Shown here: positions 11,546-40,071 of the stretch, piece by piece
How the letters are laid out: every line of letters begins with the position of its first letter
How positions within the stretch are numbered: the first letter of the stretch is position 1
From: an uncultured Lachnospiraceae bacterium
GTDB taxonomy: Bacteria > Bacillota > Clostridia > Lachnospirales > Lachnospiraceae
Direction: 5' to 3'
Assembly (NCBI GenBank): GCA_902776305.1
Contig: CACYPS010000024.1
Location: 1-42,234, forward strand
Length of the DNA: 42,234 bases
The notes under the pieces: generated by a model
Seen by the model: the letters and a program-made list of their open reading frames with translations, nothing else
The model's database searches: none
What the model was told of the DNA's origin: nothing
Position numbers and translations under genes: made by a program

Positions 11546-12295
11546 TCAATACCAGCCCCTACGAAACTTTGGCTCGTATCCGTCATCTCCTCCACTCCCC
11601 TCACAGGACACGAATTCGAATCCGTTCTCTTTACTCCAATTTTGCAAATCATACTCCAGATTGCTCCCATAATCTTCCACGACCGGTTGATAATAATCGT
11701 CTTCTGTGCAGTATTCCTTAAATTCATAATCCAGATATTTCTGCAGCCTTTTCGCGAACAAATCATAGATCGTTTCTTTTGTCGTAAACGAGTTTTTCTC
11801 AAGCAGCTTCACCAATTCCCTGTCCTCAGAAACATATTCTGTTGGTCTCAAAATAATCCTTGCTTTATAATGGCAGTCTACTGTGCCATTCCCTGCATCC
11901 CACACTGCAAATCCTTCCCAGTCATATATAAACATCTCCCTCAAAAAACGGCACAGTCCTTCCCGTTCTTTACGCTGCCACTCCTTTTTATTCTTCTCTG
12001 AATAAAGCGTATAAAGGATAATAGCAAGCCGGTCCGATATCTTTTTATTAAGACTGCACTCTCTCCTGATGGTGCCGGATAGCAGTTCCGCATCATAACC
12101 GGGATCTGCAGTTTCCAGCATCCCGCTTGCCAGAAGATGCAAAAGCGCCGCCGCTGTTTTCCTATCTGCGGTTCCGGATTTGACCAGCTTTGTATAAACC
12201 AGATATGGCTCATCTGTCAAATATTTCAGCCCATTCTGGTCGATGATCTCCTTAAGCGCTTTCACGATACCTTCTATCGTTTTTTCCGACTTCAC
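11546..12295 (-). CDS. hypothetical protein, 249 residues, helical N terminus
   Basis: No family is recognised with confidence. The N-terminal 80 residues (IIDQNGLKYLTDEPYLVYTK and following helix) loosely resemble the small helical domain found in some DnaK-associated and zinc-ribbon proteins. The C-terminal half is acidic and Tyr-rich. I place the start at the GTG at 12295, which has an excellent GGAGGGAG site 6 bp upstream. An ATG at 12343 would add 16 residues but has no such site. It is the first gene of a probable pair with the 120-residue protein. Confidence 0.6.
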   Translation of the reverse strand: MKSEKTIEGIVKALKEIIDQNGLKYLTDEPYLVYTKLVKSGTADRKTAAALLHLLASGMLETADPGYDAELLSGTIRRECSLNKKISDRLAIILYTLYSEKNKKEWQRKEREGLCRFLREMFIYDWEGFAVWDAGNGTVDCHYKARIILRPTEYVSEDRELVKLLEKNSFTTKETIYDLFAKRLQKYLDYEFKEYCTEDDYYQPVVEDYGSNLEYDLQNWSKENGFEFVSCEGSGGDDGYEPKFRRGWY

Positions 12296-12393
12296 TCTTC
12301 TCCCTCCATTTTTCAAGAATTCTATTACCGCAAATACCGACATTATCTTAACCCAGAGTTATTAATCATAATTACGTTCATTTCGCTTCATTC

Positions 12394-12471: not shown

Positions 12472-12975
12472 ATGAAGAGAGAACCCAAACCTAAAATCAC
12501 AAAAGACACCCTCCCCGAAGATTTCACCCTGCTCCTTGCTCTGACCGACAGCCTCCCGGTAATCTTCTTCGGTGCCAGCATGCTGCTCATCGGCCGCAGA
12601 TTCTCGAGCCTCCTCTTCATGGCCGGAGCCCTCCTCTGCCTCATCGGAGGTGCCGGAAAGGTACTCTGGAAAATAATCGTTGTCCTACAAAAGAAAAATG
12701 TATGGCCGCTATTTATCCAAATGCGCATCCTCATGCCCTCAGGCTTCCTCCTCATGCTGGCATCCCTGTTTGCAAATGCTGACAAACTGAGCTTCCATAC
12801 AATCTGCCAAGCCGTGACTTCATTTCCGTCCGTGATCTTCTTTGCCGCGGGACTTCTGGGGATGGTTCTGATGACCGTATTTGCGTTCATTCTCAACAGC
12901 GCGGACCCGAGGGCAAACTGGATTGAGCAGCTGACCAATGGCGCTGCGCAGACAGCATTTTTCATTGGGCTTTAA
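12472..12975 (+). CDS. small polytopic membrane protein, 167 residues
   Basis: The protein has a hydrophilic N terminus (MKREPKPKITKD) and then four hydrophobic segments at about residues 25-45, 47-70, 82-100 and 115-140. I do not recognise the family. It stands alone on the plus strand between minus-strand genes. An AAAGGA site precedes the ATG, and a compact terminator lies just after the stop. The opposite-strand frame over the same region is Arg/Ser-rich with no ribosome site and is taken as a shadow. Cellular role unknown. Confidence 0.7.
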   Translation: MKREPKPKITKDTLPEDFTLLLALTDSLPVIFFGASMLLIGRRFSSLLFMAGALLCLIGGAGKVLWKIIVVLQKKNVWPLFIQMRILMPSGFLLMLASLFANADKLSFHTICQAVTSFPSVIFFAAGLLGMVLMTVFAFILNSADPRANWIEQLTNGAAQTAFFIGL

Positions 12976-12991
12976 CTGCTCAAGTGAAAAC

Positions 12992-13030
12992 CTTACAGAT
13001 TACGGAAGTAATCAATTTTTTTGCCTGTAA
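12992..13030 (+). terminator. terminator between convergent genes, built on a TACGGAAGTA site
   Basis: GATTAC-GGAA-GTAATC is followed by AATTTTTTT, and an outer CTTACAG/CTGTAAG pair encloses it. It ends the plus-strand gene and overlaps the stop codon of the minus-strand HNH gene. The core is the same half-site seen in the 74-bp arrays. Confidence 0.65.
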
Positions 13031-14094
13031 GTCCGGTACAAATCCGTATACATTTTTGACTCCGGCTTTTTGCTCTGTTCCGTTCCCTCCGCACATCGGT
13101 CCAGAAACAGATCCTGTTCAAGCCGGTGTCTGTATCTTACCCTGCTCTGCCATTCATCGATCCCATCCATCGCAAGAATCTGCTCTATTTCCTCCACCTG
13201 CGTGCCGGGATACCTGACCATTCTATCTAAATACAAGGCTGCCTCGTCCTCAAAAGCCTCATAAATATCCTGCAACGCAAAGACTTTAATGTTTTTCTTA
13301 TATCGATCATACTCTTCACTATATCTGTCTGATATCACCCTGACCTCTATACTGCTTTCATGATATGTTCCGTCTTCTTCCCTCACAAATGGTCTCGAGT
13401 GCAGGCGAATCCCTATATTAGAGTCAAAATCTGCCTTTTCCTCAAAAGGGGATATTAGTTCGAGGTCGTCAGCTTTCCTTTTATGATTATTGCAGGCCGA
13501 GCAGCTCGGAATCAGATTGTACAAGCACAGTGCAAAGAACGGATAGTCTGTTTTATTCACGAAATGATCTAATTCTGCTCCGAGGATTTTCTTCCCCCTT
13601 CCTCCTATATATTCGCAGCCGCAATACGGACACGATCTAATACCGAGTGATTTCAGTATTCTGACATTATATTTCACTCCCCTTTCGTCTTTACGTTCGC
13701 ACATCGCCCGATAATAAGTCTTTTGAAAGCTTTGCAAAAAAGTGTCTTTGGAAATATCCGGAGATTCAGAGTTTAGATTCTTCTTCATGCTTTTTAAATA
13801 TATATGCGCTCTATGAATCTGCTCCGGAGTTGCAAGGAGCAGTTTTTTTATAAAGTAGCGTATATCATCCAACGAACGCTCAACCACCTGATCTGAAAGC
13901 TTTTCAAGACCCATCTCATCAGCCAGTCCATATTCCACAATTTTTTCATAAAACTCTCTCAGCACAAAACTCGGCCAATCTTCATCTGCGATATCATCAT
14001 ATCCCTCAAGTCTTTTTGATTCCATTACCTTCAATGCCATTTCGGCATACTCATTTTCAAACTCATCGTGTTTTTTCCGATTGACTTTAAGCAT
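13012..14094 (-). CDS. HNH endonuclease (PtuB-like)
   Basis: A 360-residue protein with a helical N-terminal 150 residues, then a zinc-bound HNH fold. CPYC (155-158) and CSAC (198-201) are the zinc-binding pairs. D176-H177 (LDHF) is the catalytic site, and CNNHKRKADDL (201-211) completes the motif. The spacing and the LYNLIPSC phrase match HNH nucleases paired with ATPases in Septu (PtuB) and in some retron effector modules. The predicted activity is nucleic-acid cleavage gated by the ATPase. It starts 46 bp after the ATPase stop, with AAGGGGAG upstream, so it is cotranscribed. The last codons overlap the terminator at 12992. Confidence 0.8.
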   Translation of the reverse strand: MLKVNRKKHDEFENEYAEMALKVMESKRLEGYDDIADEDWPSFVLREFYEKIVEYGLADEMGLEKLSDQVVERSLDDIRYFIKKLLLATPEQIHRAHIYLKSMKKNLNSESPDISKDTFLQSFQKTYYRAMCERKDERGVKYNVRILKSLGIRSCPYCGCEYIGGRGKKILGAELDHFVNKTDYPFFALCLYNLIPSCSACNNHKRKADDLELISPFEEKADFDSNIGIRLHSRPFVREEDGTYHESSIEVRVISDRYSEEYDRYKKNIKVFALQDIYEAFEDEAALYLDRMVRYPGTQVEEIEQILAMDGIDEWQSRVRYRHRLEQDLFLDRCAEGTEQSKKPESKMYTDLYRTYRQKN

Positions 14095-14140
14095 GCATAA
14101 ATCTCCCCTTTTTCAGTATTCTTATCTTACACCGGAATCG

Positions 14141-17100
14141 CTATTTATGAAAAAGCGGTTCGGTTCTCGCCGTAAAATCATTATACATGTCAGTCAGCTC
14201 ATTTCTCAGGACACCTTCTCCAATCAAGTCTATGTAATATTTCAAAACATCCTTAGTCCATTTATATTTCATACATTCCGAATCTGTATCCGCAAAAGAC
14301 TTTTTCCGCGCTTTTATAAGTACTTCTATAACATACTCTCCTTCGGCCTTGCCTTCACATTTTCGCAGTTCTCTCCTGTCCTCCATACCGTTTCTCCGGG
14401 CAGCTTCAACCGCTGTCAATATTTTCATTGTCTTAGTGAAAATATCCTTGTGATTTGCCTCAAGAGTAGCAATAAAATTCTTATATTTACTACTCCTTTT
14501 CCTTCTTTTTTCTTCCAAAAACTCGACCAAATCGGTCACATCGATAAGCAATCCCACGAGCGACTCTATGCGTTCATCCGCAAATGCTCCAATAGTCCTT
14601 TTAAGAAAAAACGGCTTAGCCATCAGCGTGTGAATATTCTGCCCGAATGTGGGAACTGAAGGATTCATTCGTCGAGTTTCATCCCTATTGCATATCACGG
14701 AGTCTTCGAATGAATCTGCTCTATCATCCTTCATCAGATATATGTCTCTCTGCCTCAGATCCGACAGCATAAGAGGTGAGTTTGTCGTAAATACAATCTG
14801 AAGAGGTTCTTCCCGTTCCCCGTCTTCGACCATTTGCAGAATATCTTGTACGAATTCTCTCTGCCAATCCGGATGATAATAAGTATCTGCCTCATCAAAA
14901 AACAGAACACCTGCATCGGTATCCTGCAAATGCAGACCCATCATCTCATCCCGTACATACTCCCAGCTCAAAGATTCTTCCTCCCATCTCAGAGGATCTG
15001 CAAATGCATGTTTCGGATCAACTCCTCTTTCTGCAAAGACCATTTCGAATTCTTTCCATCCTTTCACGCACCAGTATAGTTTTGATAACAGCGCAAACTT
15101 ACTATACTGCCCCGAAGAAAACGGACGCATATATGCAAGCGGGTCTTTTAATACCGTCTCCAGAGCCTGTCCCGTCAAACTTCGGACAAATACAGAATCT
15201 TCCTTAATAAGATTCTCATAGTCATCGCTCACTCCTCCGAGGTCATATTTCTTAGGTTCGAGTTCCGGACTCCTTACTGCGAGGTCATCAGCAGAAAAAT
15301 CGTCACCAAAATACTTTTTCAGATTTTCCTTCTCAGAGTAATAAAACAGGAGCTGCATGACAATTGCTTTGTTCAAAATCGAATCCGAAGGATTCTTTCG
15401 TGCGCGGCTGAACACTTCTTCCGATAAATCAATAATACCATCCTCTTTATCCCTTCTTCGGGAAAAAGCCTGTTCCGTGACAAAAAATCCCCCTTGCAGA
15501 GTTTCTGCTGTCTCATCCTTACTGTACCTGCTATTCTCTTCATCCGTAATACCGGCAGGAGCCAGGAATTGAGAAAAATACACAATCTTGCGGTTTCGGC
15601 TGTACATAGGAAGAAGATTGCCGATACTATATGGATAGACTACTCTTCCGTCATCAGCGTTTGCGTATAAAACCTCTGATGAGTCCGGTTCCTCATGGCT
15701 ATTCACGGTTTTGTTTAAAAATGTTACCCTGTCTGTCTGATTTTCTCCTTCCGGAATAGTAACACCTTCGAACAAAAGATTGGTAAGATAATAATATTTT
15801 CCGTTAAAATAGAATATGATAAAAAATACGGTCCCTTCGGATTGCCTTTCTTCCTTCCCGGAAGAAGTCTCATTCAGGCGATAGTACTTCATATTCTCCG
15901 GTTTTATGTCAACGCAACCATTATATGCTTGCAGCTTTTCAGTGTATAAATCGCGGCAAATCTTCAAAAAACTGTCTCTGAGAAAATCAACGACACTACT
16001 TTTACCTGCACCGTTCTTTCCTACGAATCCGGTCAGCGAAAGTATCTTACTACCGTAAAAATGATCCAAAGATCCCTCTATGTCTGCCTTTTCAAGTTCA
16101 ACTTTATTCCCGATCCGCGAAAACGCAAACATATGGTCAAATGAAAGCGCTATACGATCTATTCCTCTGTAGTTCTCAAGATATATCAGTGAATAGTGGA
16201 AATCTGCTCCGGCCGGATGCATACGATACTCTACTGCTGTTTCAAGTATCTTTTCTTCTTTCAGCAGTTTTTCAAGGGCCTCCAGCTCGTAATCATCCGT
16301 GCAGAAAGGAACCTTGAACTGCCTTTCCGGGTATTTCTCCGCATCTTTCCCCGAGCCCCTACAATACATGCGAATGCATAACTCCATTTGTTGCCCAGAT
16401 TCCTGTATTTTACCGGGCTGAGCATCGATTGATTTAAGCGTAATAACCATCACGTGGATGTCGGACAAAATAATGTTGAAAACAGAGGACGTCGCATTTG
16501 CATAATCATGATTATCTTCCACCGAATCTTCTGTCAGCGATATACCACGCATACTTTTCTCCCGCAAAATATCAGACACATATTCTTTCATTCTTGCAGA
16601 AACATATGCACAGTCAATGCAGTTGAACTTCAGACATGCCTGTCGTTCTCCATCCTGCGTCCACATAGTCTGAATCATGCTCGTTACATGCTGACGGATG
16701 ACAGACTCCAGAACTTTTCTCGGGCAAGGATCAGTCTGAGTACCTATCAAGGCGCTTTCAGAAAGCTCTTCTAAGAAGTTACGGTACGAGCACTGCTCAA
16801 TAATCTGCTGCTTCAACTCTTCGGGAAGTGTGCCAAAGTTCTTTGCAATTACATCATCTACATTACGATCAATAGTTTTTTCCGTCTCTATGCCGGGAGA
16901 TATTAATTTGCTGACAACCATTATAAACTCAGTATCTGCATCTTCTTCCGGACAGAAATACTCAAGCAATATGGCTAAACAACGGTCCCGTGTCATGAGA
17001 CCGCATTCCGTACACCACCAGCAGGTCCCCTTATAATTCACATACAGTATTTTTCTGAATGTACTCGTAACGAGTTGATTGACCACCCCTGCTATAAGAA

Positions 17101-17569
17101 TGTCTTCAGCATCTTCTTTCCCGCTCCCATCAACAGGTCTCAGTTCTTCATTCTTTGAATAGCCTACACCTTCATTAATCATATACATCCCGAGCGAAAA
17201 GGCGGGAATATGAATTAAATTTTCAAATTCGTCCAATTTAAATAATTCTTCATACCCGCCCGCACCATACATGTTAACCAAAAGACTTATAACTGCCCAG
17301 GAAATAAAAATGAGCATATCTCGCAATGCTGCAGCTCGATTTGAGCTGTGTGAAACGTCCTTCAAGCTTAACTCTATCTTCTCATAAAACCAGCCGGCCC
17401 ACTGCAGAAACTCATTAATATTTCTGGCACGATCCAGCCTCGTCCAAATCTCCTGTTGAAAAACATCCTTATCTGTTTGAGAGTCATCAGATTGACCCTG
17501 CGCCGAATATTTTTCAGCGGCAAGACTCGTGTATTTCTGAATATGTGCTTTGGCTTCCATGTATTCCAT
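14141..17569 (-). CDS. large ABC/SMC-type AAA ATPase, defence-system like
   Basis: This is a 1142-residue ATPase. Residues 1-480 are a long helical region of unknown fold containing several Cys pairs (CWWCTEC; CLKFNCIDC), possibly a metal site. Walker A is GKNGAGKSS (517-525). An ABC-like signature FSSGQ lies at 817-821. Walker B is LFFDEAD (D892, E893), followed by TYYHPDWQREF and a TTNSPLMLSDL segment typical of OLD/RecF/SMC-like DNA-repair and defence ATPases. It is about twice the size of a typical PtuA. No TOPRIM domain is evident. AGGGAAG lies about 7 bp upstream of the ATG. It is followed at once by the HNH nuclease and preceded by the 63-residue gene with an intervening terminator-like hairpin. 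Confidence 0.82.
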   Translation of the reverse strand: MEYMEAKAHIQKYTSLAAEKYSAQGQSDDSQTDKDVFQQEIWTRLDRARNINEFLQWAGWFYEKIELSLKDVSHSSNRAAALRDMLIFISWAVISLLVNMYGAGGYEELFKLDEFENLIHIPAFSLGMYMINEGVGYSKNEELRPVDGSGKEDAEDILIAGVVNQLVTSTFRKILYVNYKGTCWWCTECGLMTRDRCLAILLEYFCPEEDADTEFIMVVSKLISPGIETEKTIDRNVDDVIAKNFGTLPEELKQQIIEQCSYRNFLEELSESALIGTQTDPCPRKVLESVIRQHVTSMIQTMWTQDGERQACLKFNCIDCAYVSARMKEYVSDILREKSMRGISLTEDSVEDNHDYANATSSVFNIILSDIHVMVITLKSIDAQPGKIQESGQQMELCIRMYCRGSGKDAEKYPERQFKVPFCTDDYELEALEKLLKEEKILETAVEYRMHPAGADFHYSLIYLENYRGIDRIALSFDHMFAFSRIGNKVELEKADIEGSLDHFYGSKILSLTGFVGKNGAGKSSVVDFLRDSFLKICRDLYTEKLQAYNGCVDIKPENMKYYRLNETSSGKEERQSEGTVFFIIFYFNGKYYYLTNLLFEGVTIPEGENQTDRVTFLNKTVNSHEEPDSSEVLYANADDGRVVYPYSIGNLLPMYSRNRKIVYFSQFLAPAGITDEENSRYSKDETAETLQGGFFVTEQAFSRRRDKEDGIIDLSEEVFSRARKNPSDSILNKAIVMQLLFYYSEKENLKKYFGDDFSADDLAVRSPELEPKKYDLGGVSDDYENLIKEDSVFVRSLTGQALETVLKDPLAYMRPFSSGQYSKFALLSKLYWCVKGWKEFEMVFAERGVDPKHAFADPLRWEEESLSWEYVRDEMMGLHLQDTDAGVLFFDEADTYYHPDWQREFVQDILQMVEDGEREEPLQIVFTTNSPLMLSDLRQRDIYLMKDDRADSFEDSVICNRDETRRMNPSVPTFGQNIHTLMAKPFFLKRTIGAFADERIESLVGLLIDVTDLVEFLEEKRRKRSSKYKNFIATLEANHKDIFTKTMKILTAVEAARRNGMEDRRELRKCEGKAEGEYVIEVLIKARKKSFADTDSECMKYKWTKDVLKYYIDLIGEGVLRNELTDMYNDFTARTEPLFHK

Positions 17570-17646
17570 ATTATTTCTTCCCTCAACTAATCAATCCCGG
17601 ACTAATCACCGAAAACTCAGAAACGAAGTTCCCTATGACATAAACA

Positions 17647-17680
17647 AAAAGCCACTGATACAATATCTGTACAGTGGCTT
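17647..17680 (-). terminator. hairpin terminator or attenuator before the ATPase gene
   Basis: AAGCCACTG and CAGTGGCTT form a 9-bp stem; on the minus strand it is followed by TTTTGTTTA. It lies between the 63-residue gene and the ATPase start, about 80 bp upstream of the latter, so it either ends the small gene's transcript or attenuates the ATPase-HNH genes. A second small hairpin ACCGTAAATACGGT lies just after the small gene's stop. Confidence 0.7.
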
Positions 17681-17781
17681 AGATTCCTTGACTACTATGA
17701 TTACGCATACAGAACTATGCATAGACCTGCTATCTTGATTTTACTGATATCAGCCTTATACATAGCACACCGTATTTACGG

Positions 17782-17973
17782 TTAATGCTTTGGAACAATT
17801 AACTTCTTAGGCAGTATCGGACTGCTGTTATATGGCTTACTATCTTTATTTCTCACACAGGCATCCATCACTGTATAGTATTCTATAGTCTCGAAGGAGG
17901 ATTTAACACGTCTGTCCCTTAATACGTCAACCGCAAATGAATCCGGCTGAGCCTGCGTGATGATATCTGCCAT
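17782..17973 (-). CDS. 63-residue protein of unknown function in the ATPase-HNH locus
   Basis: No family is recognised. It is a soluble, charged small protein (starts MADIITQAQPDSFAVDVLRD, ends in a Pro/Lys-rich tail, LPKKLIVPKH). AAAGGAG at 7 bp spacing is near-ideal. A consensus promoter lies 55 bp upstream and a terminator-like hairpin follows, so it looks strongly and partly independently expressed. Its position between metallopeptidase and ATPase suggests a regulator, substrate or antitoxin-like partner; this is inference. Confidence 0.7.
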   Translation of the reverse strand: MADIITQAQPDSFAVDVLRDRRVKSSFETIEYYTVMDACVRNKDSKPYNSSPILPKKLIVPKH

Positions 17974-18028
17974 ACCCAGCTCCTTTCTATGTAAATACTA
18001 CATGTTAATAAATTTGTGAGATACTGCT

Positions 18029-18057
18029 ATTATACCATTGCAGAAATCTTATCTCAA
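18029..18057 (-). promoter_or_regulatory. near-consensus promoter for the 63-residue gene
   Basis: The minus strand reads TTGAGA, 17 bp, TATAAT, with TG one base before the -10 (extended -10). This is the best promoter match I found in the window. Confidence 0.75.
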
Positions 18058-18205
18058 GTCTCGAACGCAAAAATACACTCAGAATAATTACTGTTTATCG
18101 TAACATGTGGCAGCTCACGATGCAAGATGAATTTTCCTGCGTTTTATCCTGTTTTTGATATGAAAGATAAGCCGTATCTTTTATCTTTACACAATAATCC
18201 GCACA

Positions 18206-21200
18206 TTACTCACAGTCTGTCAAAATATCTTCTGCCACGCCTCTAATCGCACGATAATACAATTCGGACACCATCTCTATCATATGTGTATTCGTCCACT
18301 TTCGTATGTCCTTATCATACCTGCGTTCAGGATGATTTAAAAGCTTCCGTATCTCCCTAAAGTACGGCCACATCCAACACCCGTCAGAGCCATCGGAACC
18401 TACGAATTCATCGTGAAGCCTGCCGGTATTATAATAACCCAGCCGGTAATCCTCGGACAAATACTCCAGTCTTTCAAGTGTCACGATTTCCTGATGAATT
18501 TCCACATAAAGCCTCTTAAGGAAAAATGACATATACCCAAGTCTTGACATCTCCCCTCGCAAAATCTCCAATTCCTGCAGCTGCTTCTGCTTTATATCAA
18601 AAAGACCTCTTCTGGAATCATAATGGCTTCTTTTTGTCTCCTCATCTCCTTCGGGAACGGATCTGATAATCTCATCATAGATAAGCCCGGTATAAGAACG
18701 CAGAAAGAGAAAATATTCTGTTTCATATTTGTTCAAAATGGCCTCCAAAGTCAGTCCGGGCTGGACTTTGGACAAATCTTCGTACAGCTCTCCTTCTGAC
18801 AGTCTGTTCCTTTCGTTCGTCTCCTCGATTGCATCAAAGAGCTCCTTAATGTCTTTCTCTCCGGAATCTTTCCCGTCCCTGTAAACCTCGTCAAAGAAAT
18901 CAGTATTCTCTCTGTTATCATCGAAATACTGATCTTTATAGTATACAATGCGTCTTCTGAAGCTTCTGCACCACTCAGACAATGACTTCCTGACTATTTC
19001 TCCTGTCTCTTCATCCTCGGCATCCTGTATCATGTCGTCGAAGCTTCTGCATCTGTCGCTAATGGCTTCAAGCGATTTATCTGACATCAGGACAAAATCA
19101 TTATAAAGCCGCTCCATCAGTCCCCACCAGTAACGCCTTTTGTCCGCCCTGCGTTCAAGGTGCTTCGCCGACCGGCTGAATTCTGCATACATAACAAGAC
19201 AAAATCTCCGGATGTAAGTGTGCGCTGTCCTTGCATCGGAAGGAGCATACTCCGAGAGAAAGCTGAAGTACCCGAACGGAGTCATTTCAACAAGATTATA
19301 CATGAACAAGTCAGAGCAAACTTCGGAATAGATGGTAGACGCCTGCTTCATAATTTCCGTAGCTTCCATGCGGGTCTTTGTAATATGCGGAGAAATGAAG
19401 GCTTCCAGTGTGGATGGTGCTATGATACTGTAACTGTCTCCACGTGTCAGATACATGAACACCTTACCGATTTCCGCGACAAGCGCTTTATTTTCACCAT
19501 CCTTCTCCAGTTTTTCGGCATTTGCACTCAGCTGTTCGCTCAGAACTATAAAGAAACGATCTACCAGTCTATAGCGTGGAAGTATTTGGTTGAAATCATC
19601 ACCAAAACTGCGGTTGGCAAGCAGCGACTCATAAATCTGTTTAGCTGATACATCGACAAAGCCTGCTTTGTCTGCCGGATTTTTATCTTCCTGTACTTGC
19701 AGATACACTTCTAATGCAGCGATAGCATCCCTCATATATGTTTGAACACTTTGTTCGTATTCTTTAGCATAAATCGAAGAATTTCTTCGCTTATATGCCG
19801 GCTCCCACCTGTTAACAAGTGCCTTTCTCAAGACTCTTACTCTTTTTAGTGCTTCATCTCTTTCTTCGATATTCTTTTCATCGCGAAGACTTATACACTG
19901 ACGTATGAATCTGTCAACGTCATTTATCTGCCGTATGACCTCCGTAAACTTATCATATTCGTTCTTAATATAGTCGAGAACATTACCATAGCTGAAATCT
20001 TTTATCATCCTCATGGCATTGCGGTCATCATTAATAATCTTGCTGTAGGTATAAAAGAGGCTGTCACATATGAGTTGAGTAATGCCGATCGACTCTCTGA
20101 GTTCAGGAATATTCGCATGCAGATTATCTATAACACTCATTGTAATCTGATCACATATCAGATACGTGAGATAATCAACAATAATTCCATTTCTTTCAGC
20201 CCGTCCTCTATAGCGAAGGTTATGAGCCACTTCATGAAAAAGGATTCCTACCGTCCCGCCAAAATTTGTCAAATCGCTGAAATTGGAACACCACACCACC
20301 ATCAGCTTCTCGTTCGGAAATGTCGGTTTTGCTTCCTTGAACAGAACTTTGGTTCTTAAAGATTCATCCTGATTTCCGGGAATCACGAAGGGCGTATACT
20401 GCTGCCTCAAACCGAATATCTCTTCGCAAAGAGCCGTCCCCTCATACCATTTGAAAAGCGAATTCAGAAGTTCACCGTATCCTACCAGTACTTTCTCCAT
20501 GCTGACTGTTGACTCAAGGTTATAGTTCGGCGTCTGTAGCGACTGAAGATTGTTATCTCGAATCAGCTTCGAGAAGACATTTAGCGACTCGACTGCCTCC
20601 GCAAGTGCATGCTCCATTATAGGAATAAAGTTACGATTCTTCTTTTCTTCAAGCACCTTATAACAATCCTGCATTCCATCCAGCACCATATTAATCTGGC
20701 TAATCAGAATAGAGCAATATATCCGTGTATCCGATAGCCCGTTAATTGAACCGCACAGGTTTAGCATTTGCCTGAGGAGATTCAGTTGATAAAGCATGTT
20801 TCGCCGATTCGTATCAAGTAGCATGACCTGTGTAAAAACTTCATCCAGTCTCCTTTTGACCCGGCTGAGCGCTCTTTCATTAATTTCCGCTATAAGCGGA
20901 CATGTTATCGTCTCTTCTCTGAGTCGAATTTCGGTCTGACTGGATTCTGAGTCCTTAGCGAAGATATCCATATTATCGCACTTGAATACATATCTCTCAT
21001 TGACGTATGTCACATACCCCTTTTGGGCGATATACTCTATCAGTTCTTCACAGATATCAAACTCCTCTCCCAGTTCTGCCCTCATCGCCCGTTGTTCTTC
21101 ATCAGATCTATTTGATTTTTCTGAGCCCCTGCTTCCGAGCTTATAATCGTAAAGCGTCTTCGAGACATATCTGAAAGCGTTCTCTGTCAAAGTGACGGAA

Positions 21201-22270
21201 AAATCGTACCTGCCGTTCAGCCGGGCATATTTATGGCTGCTGTTGTCTTTGGCTGCATTTGCCCAATACCTGTTGCTGAAAGTCATCCTTAGTACAAATC
21301 GCCCGTCTACTTTAAAATCGCCGTCATATTGTTCAAAAAACGTCTTTCTCTCCGGCATTTCCGGAACTTCGGTTTTTCCCTGACTTATAGACGTTACATG
21401 CCTGGCAGAGTCATTACACCCAAACCACTTTTTGTTACAGCTAAGGAGCGTATATGTCTTAAAAAAGACATACCGCATTCCCTGCTTTCCCCCGGTGGCA
21501 CTTTTCGGGTAATAACACCCCCGTTCTCTGAACAGAGTTGCAAGAATAAAAGCAGTCTCGGGACGATTACTGCCAACAGCCACTGTAAAATCACCGGCTG
21601 ATATGGAACGGTATACTCTGCAGATGAAAGGATCTCTTCGATAATGCTCTCTCGCATAGCCTTCTATAATCCTGTGTATATCCTCATAGAACTGATTGAT
21701 TATGCCCCTGGTCACCGAATTTGGCAAGTAGTCGCCACTCTCTTCGTCTTCATGTACAGGCTCAATCCTTGCCATGATTTCCGGCATGATATAAATCTGA
21801 ACCAAACTCAGATAGGGGTACTGGTTCTGCATTGCAAACGGATTCCCATATGGTGCCGCTTTTCCGTCAGCCTCTCCATCTACAGCTTTGACAGATATCT
21901 CATGTTCATGTTTCTCTATGTCCTCTGCCAGACAATAAATCGGTATGCTCTGCATAGCGACCTCATACTTTGACAATCTGTTATCAGACGAGGTATTGAT
22001 ATCCATGAATTTATTGATGTCTTCTTCTATTTGTATCTTTTTCGGTACGAGTGCATCAAAATAATCCATTGCAAGATAGGGTGCTTCTTCTGATGTTTCA
22101 TCATCTGTCAAAGCATCTCCTAACGTATCCGGCAAATACATATCATATACGTCAGCCCCTTCTGCTGACTCCGGTATATAATCATCCTGTGCATCGGCAA
22201 TTTCCGTTTTTACCGAAGTATGGACAGCTTTTCTCAGTAATTTAATCAGATAAAATTCCGGTTCGCGCAT
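18206..22270 (-). CDS. giant putative zinc metallopeptidase (HEVAH), 1354 residues
   Basis: I recognise no named family. A zincin motif HEVAH lies at H679-H683, in ILFHEVAHNLRYRGRAERNG. A plausible third-ligand segment SEVCSDLF (E983, D987) is about 300 residues downstream, reminiscent of ExxxD in other predicted peptidases. N-terminal residues 1-480 are mixed and acidic; the remainder is mostly helical and charged with likely coiled coils (810-890, 1130-1260). No signal peptide or membrane segment is evident, so it is cytoplasmic. The start at 22270 follows AAAAGGT; the longer frame to 22435 has no ribosome site and runs into the promoter. It is the first gene of the ATPase-HNH locus, and its promoter contains a G7 tract. 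Proteolytic activity is inferred from motif only. Confidence 0.75.
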   Translation of the reverse strand: MREPEFYLIKLLRKAVHTSVKTEIADAQDDYIPESAEGADVYDMYLPDTLGDALTDDETSEEAPYLAMDYFDALVPKKIQIEEDINKFMDINTSSDNRLSKYEVAMQSIPIYCLAEDIEKHEHEISVKAVDGEADGKAAPYGNPFAMQNQYPYLSLVQIYIMPEIMARIEPVHEDEESGDYLPNSVTRGIINQFYEDIHRIIEGYAREHYRRDPFICRVYRSISAGDFTVAVGSNRPETAFILATLFRERGCYYPKSATGGKQGMRYVFFKTYTLLSCNKKWFGCNDSARHVTSISQGKTEVPEMPERKTFFEQYDGDFKVDGRFVLRMTFSNRYWANAAKDNSSHKYARLNGRYDFSVTLTENAFRYVSKTLYDYKLGSRGSEKSNRSDEEQRAMRAELGEEFDICEELIEYIAQKGYVTYVNERYVFKCDNMDIFAKDSESSQTEIRLREETITCPLIAEINERALSRVKRRLDEVFTQVMLLDTNRRNMLYQLNLLRQMLNLCGSINGLSDTRIYCSILISQINMVLDGMQDCYKVLEEKKNRNFIPIMEHALAEAVESLNVFSKLIRDNNLQSLQTPNYNLESTVSMEKVLVGYGELLNSLFKWYEGTALCEEIFGLRQQYTPFVIPGNQDESLRTKVLFKEAKPTFPNEKLMVVWCSNFSDLTNFGGTVGILFHEVAHNLRYRGRAERNGIIVDYLTYLICDQITMSVIDNLHANIPELRESIGITQLICDSLFYTYSKIINDDRNAMRMIKDFSYGNVLDYIKNEYDKFTEVIRQINDVDRFIRQCISLRDEKNIEERDEALKRVRVLRKALVNRWEPAYKRRNSSIYAKEYEQSVQTYMRDAIAALEVYLQVQEDKNPADKAGFVDVSAKQIYESLLANRSFGDDFNQILPRYRLVDRFFIVLSEQLSANAEKLEKDGENKALVAEIGKVFMYLTRGDSYSIIAPSTLEAFISPHITKTRMEATEIMKQASTIYSEVCSDLFMYNLVEMTPFGYFSFLSEYAPSDARTAHTYIRRFCLVMYAEFSRSAKHLERRADKRRYWWGLMERLYNDFVLMSDKSLEAISDRCRSFDDMIQDAEDEETGEIVRKSLSEWCRSFRRRIVYYKDQYFDDNRENTDFFDEVYRDGKDSGEKDIKELFDAIEETNERNRLSEGELYEDLSKVQPGLTLEAILNKYETEYFLFLRSYTGLIYDEIIRSVPEGDEETKRSHYDSRRGLFDIKQKQLQELEILRGEMSRLGYMSFFLKRLYVEIHQEIVTLERLEYLSEDYRLGYYNTGRLHDEFVGSDGSDGCWMWPYFREIRKLLNHPERRYDKDIRKWTNTHMIEMVSELYYRAIRGVAEDILTDCE

Positions 22271-22393
22271 TTCAGTACCTTTTCTATTTTGCTCCAAATA
22301 TGCATACAAGTAAGAACGCCACGGCTTTTTTGGGGGTGAAGATTTGAGATTTATTTCGTCAATGACTATGAAGTATACAGAACGACTATCTGT

Positions 22394-22422
22394 ATAATAA
22401 CATACAAACACCCCCCCAACAA
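22394..22422 (-). promoter_or_regulatory. candidate phase-variable promoter with G7 spacer tract
   Basis: On the minus strand TTGTTG (-35) and TATTAT (-10) are 17 bp apart, and the spacer begins with six G that join the last G of the -35 to make a run of seven. The predicted transcript starts near 22387, about 117 nt before the metallopeptidase ATG. A second run of nine C (nine G on the transcribed strand) is at 22473-22481. Slippage in the first tract would change -35/-10 spacing. Confidence 0.5.
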
Positions 22423-22496
22423 CATAACAACACAATTCATCAAGAAGCTTTGAATTTCCTTTAAAGCCCTTTCCCCCCCCCGCCTCCTTCTTGTCT

Positions 22497-22952
22497 TCAC
22501 CCCTTCCTCCTTCTCCACCCCATCTTCACAAACACCGGCCTCAGCACCCTCTTCACTCTCCTCAGCGCGCCCACGCAGACCCTCCTCACCGGATAAACCG
22601 CGCACCAAAACCTGACGTACCTGAGATACCCGGCATCCTCCACAGAATAGTCCTTCCCCTTCCGCTTGAACCCGGTCAACACGCCGATAACCGCCTCCTC
22701 GGGCACCCGCTCCAGCGCATAAGTATTATCCCCCCGGATCAGATACCCGTCCTCCGTCACCTCAATGACCCGATGGAGCACATAAGCCTTCCCCCGGCGG
22801 TACAGCGCCACATCCATCGGCTTCAGCCTTCCGTTCGGCGGCGAAATAATCACAATATCTCTCCCCTGATGGAACAAGGGCTCCATGCTTCGACCCTTCG
22901 TCGTATACGCAATCATGCCATAGTTGGCAAGCATTTCTTCAAATGTACTCAT
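22497..22952 (-). CDS. signal peptidase I-like S24/S26 protease
   Basis: A 151-residue protein of the ER/archaeal (S26B-like) signal peptidase type. The nucleophile motif GRSMEP (S22) is present. VLHRVIEV (H60) stands where bacterial enzymes carry the Lys base, as in the Ser-His variant, and RGDNTY follows. There is no clear N-terminal membrane helix; the C terminus is highly basic with some hydrophobic residues. The start at 22952 has GGAGAGAG upstream; a GTG at 22970 would add six residues. It follows the epimerase gene by 50 bp and is probably cotranscribed. Such proteases occur in polysaccharide loci, but the substrate is unknown. Confidence 0.75.
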   Translation of the reverse strand: MSTFEEMLANYGMIAYTTKGRSMEPLFHQGRDIVIISPPNGRLKPMDVALYRRGKAYVLHRVIEVTEDGYLIRGDNTYALERVPEEAVIGVLTGFKRKGKDYSVEDAGYLRYVRFWCAVYPVRRVCVGALRRVKRVLRPVFVKMGWRRRKG

Positions 22953-25962: not shown

Positions 25963-26029
25963 ATGAAATATAGTCCTCAGCCTCATTGCGATACTGTTCT
26001 GGAAATGCAAAATCAGTTTTGATCTTCAT
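25943..26029 (-). pseudogene. N-terminal fragment of a second tyrosine recombinase
   Basis: An ATG at 26029, with GGAGG upstream inside the previous gene, opens MKIKTDFAFPEQYRNEAEDY and then ISFKHS before it hits the junction with the truncated dehydrogenase. The sequence looks like the start of a SAM-like core-binding domain. It overlaps the end of the preceding recombinase by 17 bp, a pattern seen in elements with two or three consecutive recombinase genes. Confidence 0.6.
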
Positions 26030-26588
26030 CTGGCACCTCCAAAGCGAATTGCTTTAATGTATTAATATCAATGTTAAGATAGATTTTGGTTGTATTGAGA
26101 TTTGTATGACCGAGAACATCTTTGATTACATACATCGGAGTATTATTGCTCAGAAGATTGCTTGCAAGGGAGTGTCTTAAGGCATGTGGTCCGTGTTTGC
26201 GTTTCGAAATATCCAGACCAGCTTTTTTGAAGTACTTTGAGACGATGGAATGCATCTGGCTGGAAGAAATCATGCCATAATCATTTTTTAAGCCGACAAA
26301 CAACAGTGGTGAACTACAGTCTGGTCTTGAACTTCTTAAATAATCGATAAGCGCAAACTTGATATTTTCTAATAGAGGCAGTTGATTGAAAACGCCTGTT
26401 TTGAACTGTTTGAATTCGATAGTATCACGTTCCCAATGTATGTCTGTCAGATTTAATCTGCAGATATCGCCAGATCGTATTCCCAGTTCAGCTGCCAGCA
26501 AAACGATAAGGAAATCTCTTTTGCCTGATGCTGTTCTATTATCAACAGTTGAAATAAGTTTTTGTACTTCGTTTTCAGAATACCGCTG
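26013..26588 (-). pseudogene. tyrosine recombinase, C-terminal catalytic domain only
   Basis: About 190 residues of a phage-integrase catalytic domain. Catalytic Arg is in GIRSGD, the HxxR box reads HALRH, the second His is in GHTN, and the nucleophile Tyr is in TTKIYLN. The reading starts within sequence (YSENEVQKLI and following) that joins the GH3 fragment at about 26580, so the core-binding domain is missing. A TTG inside could start a 162-residue protein, but that lacks an identified ribosome site. It is followed by the overlapping second recombinase fragment. Confidence 0.8.
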
Positions 26589-27304
26589 TTGATCACCGTG
26601 ATGATTTTCTCCTTATATGTTTCTGCAGATGTGGTCTTTACCGCATTCCAGTCTGTTACCAGAAAGCCATCAAATCCCATGTCTTCCTTAAGATATCGGA
26701 GCAGTTCCTTATGTTCGCTCATTCTGATACCGTTAACGGAAGAGTCACTGATCATGATTGTCTGCACACCGGCATCGATCTGAGCCTGATAAATTCCAAG
26801 CAGTTCCTTTAATTCTTCTTCTGATAATTCCGCATTGCCGCGGTCAATCAATCTGCCTGGATAATAGTCCGGTCCGGTCCCAAATATCGTGCTGCCATCT
26901 GCAAGAAAGTGTTTGGCACACGCGACAACCCCGTTTTCAACCAGCCCCTCCGTATAGGCACGGCCAAGATTCTTTACAATTTCGGGATCTGAGCTGTAGC
27001 ATTCATATGTTCTTCCCCATCTGGGATCGCATGAAACCGCGACCGTCGGTGCAAAGTTCCAGAGCATATGACATCTGGCTGCTTCCATAGCTGTGATACG
27101 GCCTGCCTCTTTTGTGAGTTCAGGATCGTTTGCGGCACCAAGAGCAATATTATGCGGAAAAATCACAGTATCAAGGCAGTAATTCACACCGTGCACATCA
27201 TCCTGCCCATAGAGATAAGGAACAGCTGCCTGAGAATCAAGTGCAGCTGTCTGAAGCTGATCCACCGTTAGTACTTTTTGAAGTTTGGAATCAGGATCAT
27301 TCAT
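26579..27304 (-). pseudogene. GH3 beta-glucosidase-like fragment
   Basis: The segment encodes much of the N-terminal TIM-barrel of a glycoside hydrolase family 3 enzyme: YGQDDVHG, FPHNIALGAANDPEL, DPRWGRTYE, CAKHF and the nucleophile in VTDW. It ends at VINSGI, where recombinase sequence begins; the remaining roughly half of a GH3 enzyme is absent. The first ATG (27304) also lacks the usual first 40-60 family residues. Protein-like sequence in another frame lies between 27305 and 27395, so the 5' end may be frameshifted too. The surviving frame reads through into out-of-frame recombinase DNA. Confidence 0.85.
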
Positions 27305-31560: not shown

Positions 31561-32832
31561 TTACTGAGAAGTTACCTGTATCGGATCCATCATAATATGA
31601 CCCCAGTAATTGCTCTTCCACATCTCCCCCTTGACGCCGAACACCTCTGTATTATTGATCACAAAGGGTATCACATTCGGAATGCAGTCACATTTTTCCC
31701 TGGCAAAAGAGCGGCTACGCTGCAGGATACTGATTTCATAATAGTATGCCCCGTCCGCCAATCCTTTATTCGGAACAGAGACCGAGACCATATTGATGCC
31801 TGGCTGCACAGTAAATTCACCCGACTCTGTCTTACCGATTCGCGTCCCATCCTGATAGAACAGAATCATCATAAATCTGACGTTCTCCTGCACATTCTCC
31901 GCCTTCAGCGAAAAAACAATGTCCATCGGTTCGTGCGACGTATAAACATTATTATCCCTATGAATCTCGGCTGATACGAAAAGGATTCTTCTGGATATTC
32001 CCTTAAGCCTTGGCACGGAAATAAGATCCATTTTTTTGTCAAAAGACATCCCGCCGGCATCCATGTACTGGCGTATGCCTTCTTCCACATCGCCGTCATA
32101 GATGAGCTTACCCTGGTCAAGCACAATACACCGCTTGCACAACTGCCGGATCGTATTCATGTTATGGCTCACATAGAGAATTGTGCGACTCTGCGATCTC
32201 GAGACATCGTTCATCTTGTCCAGACACTTTTTCTGAAATGCCATATCACCTACCGCCAGCACTTCATCCATAACCATTATCTCGGAGTCCAGATGTGCAG
32301 CAACCGCAAACGCAAGTTTCACGTACATACCGCTGGAATACCTCTTCACCGGCGTATCGATAAACTGTCGGCATTCGGAGAATTCGATGATATCCTCCAA
32401 CTTCTCATCGATCTCTTTTTTTCGCATCCCCAGAATCGCGCCGTTCATATAGATATTCTCCCGGCCGGTCAGCTCCGGATGAAATCCCGTGCCGATCTCC
32501 AGCATGGACGCAACCCTTCCGTTCAAGCCGATCATTCCGCTGCTTGGCACAGTAACTCGGGAGATCAGTTTAAGCAGAGTGGACTTTCCTGCACCATTTC
32601 GCCCGATAATCCCGACCCGCTCTCCGGCCTTCAACTCAAAGGACACATCATCCAGCGCAAAAAAAGTGTCGCCTCGCTCATATTGCTGCGCGCCTATCTT
32701 CTGTGTCGGATCTTCCCGGTGACGGATTCGGGCACCTAAACGCTGTAATTCATCCCGTAGCGTCGTCCGACCAATCTGCCCCAGTATATACTCTTTGGTT
32801 ATATGATCAACAAGAATCATGCTTTCATCCAT
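31561..32832 (-). CDS. polysaccharide/teichoic-type ABC exporter ATP-binding protein (Wzt/TagH-like)
   Basis: The nucleotide-binding domain carries Walker A GRNGAGKS (77-84), signature YSSGM (165-169), Walker B IMVMDE (185-190) and switch H223. The long N-terminal segment before Walker A and GTGFHPELTGREN are typical of glycan exporters. A C-terminal domain of about 150 residues (from about residue 270) has the beta-sandwich look of Wzt substrate-binding domains. With the permease upstream it would export a finished lipid-linked polymer. The start at 32832 is 28 bp after the permease stop; MILVDH at 32820 is an alternative. The last 100 residues are closely duplicated at 39760. Confidence 0.9.
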   Translation of the reverse strand: MDESMILVDHITKEYILGQIGRTTLRDELQRLGARIRHREDPTQKIGAQQYERGDTFFALDDVSFELKAGERVGIIGRNGAGKSTLLKLISRVTVPSSGMIGLNGRVASMLEIGTGFHPELTGRENIYMNGAILGMRKKEIDEKLEDIIEFSECRQFIDTPVKRYSSGMYVKLAFAVAAHLDSEIMVMDEVLAVGDMAFQKKCLDKMNDVSRSQSRTILYVSHNMNTIRQLCKRCIVLDQGKLIYDGDVEEGIRQYMDAGGMSFDKKMDLISVPRLKGISRRILFVSAEIHRDNNVYTSHEPMDIVFSLKAENVQENVRFMMILFYQDGTRIGKTESGEFTVQPGINMVSVSVPNKGLADGAYYYEISILQRSRSFAREKCDCIPNVIPFVINNTEVFGVKGEMWKSNYWGHIMMDPIQVTSQ

Positions 32833-32860
32833 AGCGTGTTCTATGCTCTCCGTAAATAAT

Positions 32861-33730
32861 TTAAATTGTATCCATAAATGTTCGCTCGATCCGGCTGAAC
32901 AGAACCAGACCAATCAAAAAGATAACACCGGTTACAAACAAACTGACCATATAATATGAAATGCCAAAGTACCCGGTTCCAAACAACACATATCGAAAAG
33001 CAGTCAGAATAGGAGTAACCGGATTCAGCAGATAAAGTCCCCGATACTGATCCGGAACCAGCTCCAGTCCATAAGCAACAGGAGAGCCATACTGCCACAG
33101 CTGCAATCCGAAGCTGACCAACATGGCAAGATCTCTGTATTTTGTCGTGACAGAAGATACGATAATACCACATCCTATAGCCAGGATCATCAGATGAAGC
33201 ACCAGAAGCGGTATCAGGAGCAACATCGGCGTAATTCGGACACCTGCACTACCGGTAAAAATATAAATCAGCAAGATTACCAGCATCAGCGCAAACTGAA
33301 TACCAAAAGAAATCAGGTTGGAACATGCCGAAGATACCGGTCCGACCAATCGTGGGAAATAGACCTTTCCCATAATGTTCCGATTACGGATAAAGACATT
33401 GGACACATCGTTGATTGTTGTAGAAAAATATCCCCAGCAGATATTACCCGCCATATAAAACAAAAACCCCGGAATCATCAGATCTCCCGGTGCATCCGCA
33501 GTTGTCAGCTTTGCCAGACGTCCAAATATAATAGTAAACACCACTGTCGTGAGCAGCGGCTGAATCACTGCCCACAGCGGTCCCAGGATTGTCTGCTTGT
33601 ACTTCGCGGTAAAGTCCCGCTTCACGAACAGAAAAATCAAATCCCGATATCGAAGAGTTTCCCTGACATGCAGATCAAACACTCTGTGCTGTGATGTAAT
33701 TGTTGTCTTATAGTGAAACGCTTTCTCCAT
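32861..33730 (-). CDS. ABC-2 type glycan exporter permease (Wzm/TagG-like)
   Basis: A 289-residue protein with an amphipathic N terminus, RYRDLIFLFVKRDFTAKYKQ motif and six hydrophobic segments, the standard layout of ABC-2 polysaccharide permeases. LGPLWAVIQPLL and the C-terminal NPVTPILTAFRY are family hallmarks. GGAGTAGAGG precedes the ATG. It lies 3 bp after the GT2 gene and 28 bp before the ATPase, so these three form a tight operon. It forms the membrane channel with the ATPase at 31561. Confidence 0.92.
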   Translation of the reverse strand: MEKAFHYKTTITSQHRVFDLHVRETLRYRDLIFLFVKRDFTAKYKQTILGPLWAVIQPLLTTVVFTIIFGRLAKLTTADAPGDLMIPGFLFYMAGNICWGYFSTTINDVSNVFIRNRNIMGKVYFPRLVGPVSSACSNLISFGIQFALMLVILLIYIFTGSAGVRITPMLLLIPLLVLHLMILAIGCGIIVSSVTTKYRDLAMLVSFGLQLWQYGSPVAYGLELVPDQYRGLYLLNPVTPILTAFRYVLFGTGYFGISYYMVSLFVTGVIFLIGLVLFSRIERTFMDTI

Positions 33731-39759: not shown

Positions 39760-40071
39760 TTAGTTAAATGCGGTCACGCGTATCGGCTTCATCATAATAT
39801 GGCCCCAGTAATTGCTTTGCCATTTCTCCCCTTTGACACCGAACACCTCTGTATTATTGATCATAAAGGGAATCACGTTTGGAATGCAGTCACACTTTTC
39901 TCTATCAAATGAGCGACCCCGCTGCAGGATGCTAATCTCGTAATAGTACGTCCCGTCAGCAAGTCCTTCATTGGGAACTGACACAATAACTGTATTTATA
40001 CCCTGCTGTACAGTAAAATCACCCGACTCCGTCTTCCCAATTCGCGACCCATCCTGATAGAATACAATCAT
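39760..40071 (-). pseudogene. duplicated C-terminal fragment of the Wzt-like ABC ATPase
   Basis: The 103-residue frame (FYQDGSRIGKTESGDFTVQQ and following) is a close paralogue of the last 100 residues of the ABC ATPase at 31561. Similarity is high at DNA level too. It begins abruptly within the substrate-binding domain, so no ATPase domain and no true start are present. This is either the remnant of a second exporter gene or a duplicated gene end. It ends in VTAFN rather than VTSQ. Confidence 0.85.

Follow-up and report, generated by a model that had tools for sequence, protein, structure and literature searches.

Introduction

Septu combines an ATPase, PtuA, with an HNH protein, PtuB, a domain pair also known from retron I-A effectors. 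For a Septu system of E. coli, one study reports that the ATPase and HNH motifs are both needed and that tRNA-Tyr is cut (PMC13096335). Loci named both Septu and PDC-M62 were resolved as Septu by the authors of a second study (PMC11811056). A third paper assigns Frg to the ART superfamily and proposes that it acts as an NADase (PMC9503650). Here we describe a 42,234-nucleotide stretch from an uncultured Lachnospiraceae bacterium (GCA_902776305.1, CACYPS010000024.1), in which a Septu-like ATPase-HNH gene pair lies beside the gene of a giant HExxH protein whose relatives adjoin FRG genes. This stretch, hereafter the window, is the entire contig (C24) of a 4.08-Mb genome in 128 contigs that is 97.4% complete. 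A sequence-only reading had proposed that the giant protein, a 63-residue protein, the ATPase and the nuclease form one undescribed defense-like system. On the evidence below we lean towards two modules, a giant whose FRG partner was lost or replaced beside a Septu-like pair, and not one obligate system.

Results

Linkage of the giant protein to FRG genes

Relatives of the giant protein are rare. Counting the own genome, they were found in 4 of 299 genomes of the family sample and 2 of 391 of the class sample, and a search of the phylum sample with a 14-row profile returned 1 of 329 genomes, the own one. A pattern scan of a genome-contig collection gave 17 giant loci, among which L030, L040 and L045 share contigs with L007, L028 and L009 from other searches, while L008 came from the family search only. 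These are not 17 independent cases: L031 and L034 are near-duplicates, as are L037 and L038, and L041 and L042 lie on two contigs of one isolate. The giant was not found in viral contigs, phages or plasmids.

The next gene after the giant encodes an FRG protein in 16 of the 16 scan loci that have the 3′ end of the giant gene on the contig, and in 17 of 17 when L008 is included. The three FRG proteins scanned matched Pfam FRG with an E-value of 2.6e-15 or better and PADLOC PDC-S15 with 3.9e-22 or better. Taking the first possible start, the giant and FRG frames overlap at 12 of the 13 loci measured; the genes are 18 bases apart in L044 and 21 bases apart in L008, which is outside the 13. Moreover, the pairwise distances among giants and among FRG proteins are correlated (r 0.946, 14 loci), and none of 5000 permutations gave a value as high. 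This linkage marks the giant as the large subunit of a compact module of two genes, giant and FRG. The S in the PADLOC label presumably denotes a single-gene candidate; in the giant loci the FRG protein is half of a two-gene unit. For at least this group of FRG proteins, the missing regulator or sensor could be the giant. No description of the module was found among the papers listed by searches of the open PMC literature, mostly without full-text reading, and the module may be undescribed.

The surroundings of the giant-FRG genes, judged by eye, are mixed and often consist of housekeeping genes, and in L035 they include flagellar-like genes; the module therefore looks like a self-contained cassette. 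In L036 (8878-13618) the cassette lies, by eye, between methionine-aminopeptidase-like and S13-like genes within a ribosomal-protein cluster. In L033 (13942-16422) a gene for an 826-aa SIR2-like protein directly follows the pair, with a weak match to PADLOC SIR2 (1.3e-4). In L043 (1891-5292) it is the giant gene that is disrupted, being split over several frames, and the neighboring FRG gene is intact, the opposite of the window, where an intact giant stands without FRG.

The FRG protein, the constant partner of the giant in the loci seen, is absent from the window, where the best open reading frame (ORF) reached only E 4 with a profile that scored the control proteins from L044 and L046, both outside the profile, at 4.7e-98 and 2.1e-110. 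It was not found in the genome at E 1 either, in a search without positive control. In the tree of the giants, the window protein falls inside the FRG-linked set as sister to L040 (support 99/98); if this placement is right, the FRG linkage is the older state and the window has lost or exchanged its FRG gene. Both sisters are long branches (2.88 for the window giant against a median of 1.4), and the tree program warns of a false join. The sequence-only reading had made the giant peptidase the defining fourth part of its system. The neighborhood survey that it named as a check found homologues of the peptidase without the ATPase-HNH pair, the very outcome that it had said would refute it: neither ATPase nor HNH was matched at any of the 17 giant loci (stretches of 5.5-21.7 kb), and FRG follows instead at the 16 that include the 3′ end of the giant gene.

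Features of the giant protein

Nothing in Pfam, NCBIfam, PADLOC or the PDB sequences matched the giant significantly. Its HEVAH motif occupies residues 679-683, and H679, E680 and H683 are invariant in 14 aligned sequences, the window protein and 13 relatives. The same alignment holds further invariant residues at R686, R693 and N694 and in a YxExxxD motif (Y981, E983, D987), as well as DYFD (69-72), GD (226-227) and GRYD (353-356) in the N-terminal part; in L008, which is outside the alignment, N replaces the last D of DYFD. Of the 39 columns on which the 13 other giants agree, the window giant retains 38; the same test gave between 38/38 and 38/43 for the others, and the window giant thus shows no sign of decay. 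HExxH followed by a distant glutamate is the zincin pattern, and the giant is a putative zinc metallopeptidase on the strength of these motifs. All Pfam peptidase matches are below cut-off, the best being Tox-MPTase2 (0.0084; 16.3 of 25 bits).

Residues 1-1090 were modeled with a mean predicted local distance difference test score (pLDDT) of 60.9, and residues 1-381 resembled chlorite dismutase/HemQ with its tandem ferredoxin-like fold, the sole lead on the fold of the giant; with about 10% identity and this low-confidence model, the giant may share the fold at most. The HExxH part, modeled on L030, reached a mean pLDDT of 77.8. It gave no fold match with E below 0.3, and in a second fold search (VIA) the leading matches were mostly helical chains, including designed ones; in neither list of 50 rows was a metallopeptidase conspicuous, though one may be present. 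The idea that the N-terminus is a triplicated GGDEF/palm-like cyclase, with hairpins at DYFD, GDF and GRYDF, was dropped, as the segments did not match one another (hhalign E 0.18-0.36).

The ATPase-HNH pair and its relatives

The second half of the locus falls close to a known kind of system. The best PADLOC matches were PDC-M62A for the ATPase (1.6e-38, with the top of three stretches at residues 889-1021) and PDC-M62B for the HNH protein (4.8e-35), followed by weaker matches to PtuA (3.9e-13) and PtuB (2.5e-9); the giant and the small protein remained unmatched in that check. The HNH protein also matched phage HNH families in PHROGs (best 4.7e-12), and the ATPase matched PtuA-type solved chains among PDB sequences at E 9.2e-5 or weaker. 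The Septu logic that the sequence-only reading had recognized in this gene pair is thus borne out, and the motifs it quoted are in place: besides HEVAH in the giant, the ATPase has Walker A GKNGAGKSS at 517, the signature FSSGQ at 817 and Walker B VLFFDEAD, which includes the quoted LFFDEAD, at 888. The HNH protein has CPYC at 155, LDHF at 175, YNLIPSC at 192 and CSACNNHK at 198. With the HNH gene 46 bases downstream of the ATPase gene, the pair qualifies as PDC-M62/Septu-like. It differs from Septu in that the proteins stay far under the curated NCBIfam cut-offs for PtuA (33.2 of 500 bits) and PtuB (12.9 of 150 bits), the models being of the retron Ec78 type, in that no Rfam retron RNA was matched in the stretch, where the sole Rfam match of any kind was under its gathering score, and in the lack of a reverse transcriptase among the four genes.

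The ATPase is enlarged, as had been claimed. Its best-scoring stretches all lie in the second half of the protein, and residues 1 to ~455 gave nothing above noise in PADLOC, Pfam, NCBIfam or PHROGs; no match was found for the first 480 residues in 99 other genomes of the family, 41 others of the genus or plasmids. At 1142 aa it exceeds the ATPases of L047-L051, L053, L054 and L085, eight relatives with the two-gene arrangement and a full-length ATPase (552-701 aa); that of L052 is cut at 419 aa by the contig end. Relationship of this N-terminal half to FRG or to the giant was unsupported (hhalign E 0.4 and 0.16). We assign the pair, from its family matches, as a probable long-ATPase variant of PDC-M62/Septu. 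No ATPase match was found among viral contigs, and phages gave two weak matches, to the ATPase body only.

Relatives of the ATPase were found in 16 of 299 genomes of the family sample and in 11 of 325 of the order sample, own genome included in both. Neighbors were viewed for 11 of the 15 other genomes with an ATPase match in the family sample; of the 10 others in the order sample, G190 and three further loci were covered. An HNH relative adjoins the ATPase in 8 of the 11 family loci (L047-L054), and no HNH match was found at the remaining three (L055-L057). Among the order loci, L084 (955-aa ATPase) and L085 (659-aa ATPase) carry HNH and L086 has an ATPase with no HNH detected. In sum, 10 of the 14 loci hold the pair and no giant, the other 4 having no HNH match, and the giant is absent from all 14 stretches (5.8-13 kb for the family ones). 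HNH matches were also found in 30 plasmid records; all four viewed show an ATPase gene before HNH and no giant.

The nearest relative found is L084, from a genome of the same order (G1097), whose proteins likewise match PDC-M62A and PDC-M62B. Its ATPase has a 412-aa extension, the sole comparably long one among the relatives viewed, and the window ATPase aligns with it from residue 452 on. The giant had no match at E 1 in that genome, which gave no positive control. Homology of the two extensions is not supported: 39 of 500 shuffles reached the local alignment score and 192 of 300 the end-free global one, hhalign gave E 0.058, and only position and length agree. The cysteine-rich N-terminal half of the earlier description holds for the window protein, where residues 1-455 contain 13 Cys and the remaining 687 contain 6, but not for the L084 extension, which has only 2. 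By eye, an IS3-type element lies directly upstream of the L084 ATPase gene, and beyond it (L084:9387-10769) is what appears from its sequence to be a MutH/Sau3AI-like restriction enzyme gene, which suggests a defense island.

The junction between the two halves

All four genes named by the sequence-only reading are present on the minus strand, encoding 360, 1142, 63 and 1354 aa (Table 1). The description as genes in series is right as to order and strand, though the gaps are uneven, with 46 bases between the ATPase and HNH genes, 212 between the small ORF and the ATPase gene, and 232 between the giant and the small ORF. The giant stop is followed by a promoter-like site, the small ORF with its ribosome-binding site, a terminator-like hairpin and the ATPase start. 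The promoter-like site is the only one of its strength on the minus strand of 12801-22800 (mean of 200 shuffles, 0.015), and the hairpin is the only site of its kind in the same interval (0 in 40 shuffles), both counts being made with thresholds chosen after the sites were seen. The hairpin is missed by a standard terminator scan, which takes loops of 3-8 bases only; the RNA fold z score for 17630-17790 is -4.19. This intervening unit of promoter-like site, small ORF and strong hairpin makes a single four-gene operon unlikely. The small ORF resembles either a transcript of a single gene or an attenuator-bearing leader of the ATPase gene, and the minus-strand unit at 17630-18060 could be such a leader or a small regulatory RNA.

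Searches for relatives of the small protein found none in 199 other genomes of the family, plasmids, the 17 giant loci, PADLOC, Pfam or PHROGs, and gave one sub-threshold hit in NCBIfam (E 0.035). Its derivation from FRG or from the giant was unsupported (hhalign E 0.32 and 0.42). A repeated gene was also discarded, since the genome gives, besides the region itself, just 10 matches of about 20-38 bases. Nine of these fall at query positions 544-581, which is window 17657-17620 and outside the small ORF. This interval of about 25-38 bases, between the hairpin and the ATPase start, is a small dispersed repeat: elsewhere in the genome it has 9 short matches with 84-96% identity, and at two sites the copies overlap in inverted orientation.

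Table 1. Features of the locus, in minus-strand order
Feature	Position in window	Strand	Basis
Giant HExxH protein, 1354 aa; predicted large subunit of the giant-FRG module	18206..22270	-	ORFs, relatives, invariant HExxH and YxExxxD
Promoter-like site between giant gene and small ORF (TTGAGA-17-TATAAT, extended -10)	18029..18057	-	Promoter scan
63-codon ORF with good ribosome-binding site (AGAAAGGAG)	17782..17973	-	ORF list, sequence inspection
Strong intrinsic-terminator-like hairpin and U-run between small ORF and ATPase gene	17650..17679	-	Sequence inspection, RNA fold
Septu-like (PDC-M62A) ATPase, 1142 aa; ~455-aa N-terminal extension and ATPase body	14141..17569	-	PADLOC, Pfam, NCBIfam, PDB matches
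HNH nuclease (PDC-M62B), 360 aa	13012..14094	-	PADLOC, PHROGs matches, motifs

Discussion

In the two-module interpretation, which we hold to be somewhat the most probable, the long N-terminal and helical parts of a giant likely sense a trigger, upon which the giant would release or activate its FRG effector, probably by proteolysis; FRG, as an ART-superfamily enzyme, would probably consume NAD+. In the window the FRG gene would have been lost or replaced. The ATPase-HNH pair most likely works alone, from a transcription unit of its own: by analogy with Septu, an ATPase oligomer would hold the HNH nuclease until infection, when the nuclease would be freed to cut nucleic acid and phage growth would be stopped at a cost to the cell. 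Several observations weigh against this account. The Septu-like pair is on the same strand and exactly in the position usually taken by FRG. An orphan giant should decay, yet this one is intact without FRG, which favours its use with some partner. No strong promoter lies directly before the ATPase gene, whose own unit is deduced from the terminator-like hairpin, and a looser scan, giving 31 promoter-like sites where 20.9 were expected and 11 terminator-like sites where 6.2 were expected, cannot settle the transcription units. Finally, proteolysis by the giant is suggested by its motifs, and the fold searches gave no clear peptidase match.

Some of those observations point to a possible exchange of effectors, for which we see a real though lesser chance. 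Here the giant would be a general sensor or gate whose FRG protein was replaced by the ATPase-HNH pair, the giant now licensing the nuclease, perhaps through the N-terminal half of the ATPase. The position and strand of the pair, the failure to find FRG in the window or (in the uncontrolled search) the genome, the conserved columns of the giant and its nesting in the FRG-linked set all fit, as does the fact that such adjacency is not routine at giant loci. Against it stand the wide gap with its promoter-like site, small ORF and terminator-like hairpin; the long extension of the L084 ATPase, which has no giant beside it; the long-branch nature of the tree join; and the reliance on a single example. 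The broader proposal that the giant is a plug-in immune sensor-protease with interchangeable effectors, FRG in the relatives (mostly Lachnospiraceae) and here an ATPase-HNH pair docked or cleaved at the extra N-terminal half, we regard as tentative and less likely than not; in this single genome, the giant may be coupled to the nuclease. The obligate four-gene system of the sequence-only reading, in which the ATPase or the small protein would be cleaved by the peptidase, has in its favor the common strand and order of the genes, but each half occurs without the other, promoter- and terminator-like sites bracket the small ORF, and the small protein lacks relatives in the family genomes searched; we consider it very improbable. 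A special case of two modules, in which the giant is a recent leftover of an FRG deletion and only the Septu-like pair matters, would explain the absence of FRG and the long branch of the window giant, but not its full-length open frame and retained conserved columns, and seems improbable as well. Hardly any weight is left for other accounts. A true exchange would make modularity directly testable, with one sensor and two chemically different effectors; should there be none, the two-module locus is a warning that neighboring same-strand defense genes are not always one system.

Other features of the window

The maximal ORF of the giant spans 18206-22435, with a TTG start and 1409 aa; the most likely start is the ATG at 22270, about 150 bases from the end at 22422 given previously for the 1354-aa protein. 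The G+C content of 13012-22270 (42.0%) is below that of the left flank (50.3%) and near-equal to that of the right flank (43.1%), so that composition alone is no island marker. Downstream of the HNH gene, a 265-aa protein (11546-12343) gave a sub-threshold match to a SoFic-like C-terminal domain (8.4e-4). At 26013-27304, part of an integrase (Pfam Phage_integrase, 2.9e-23) and a GH3 N-terminal domain (5.1e-47) overlap in a short ORF, which looks like what is left of an insertion. The 103-aa ORF at 39760-40071 is, by eye, a duplicated gene fragment, a repeat of the C-terminal part of the protein encoded at 31561-32913, which resembles ABC-transporter ATPases.

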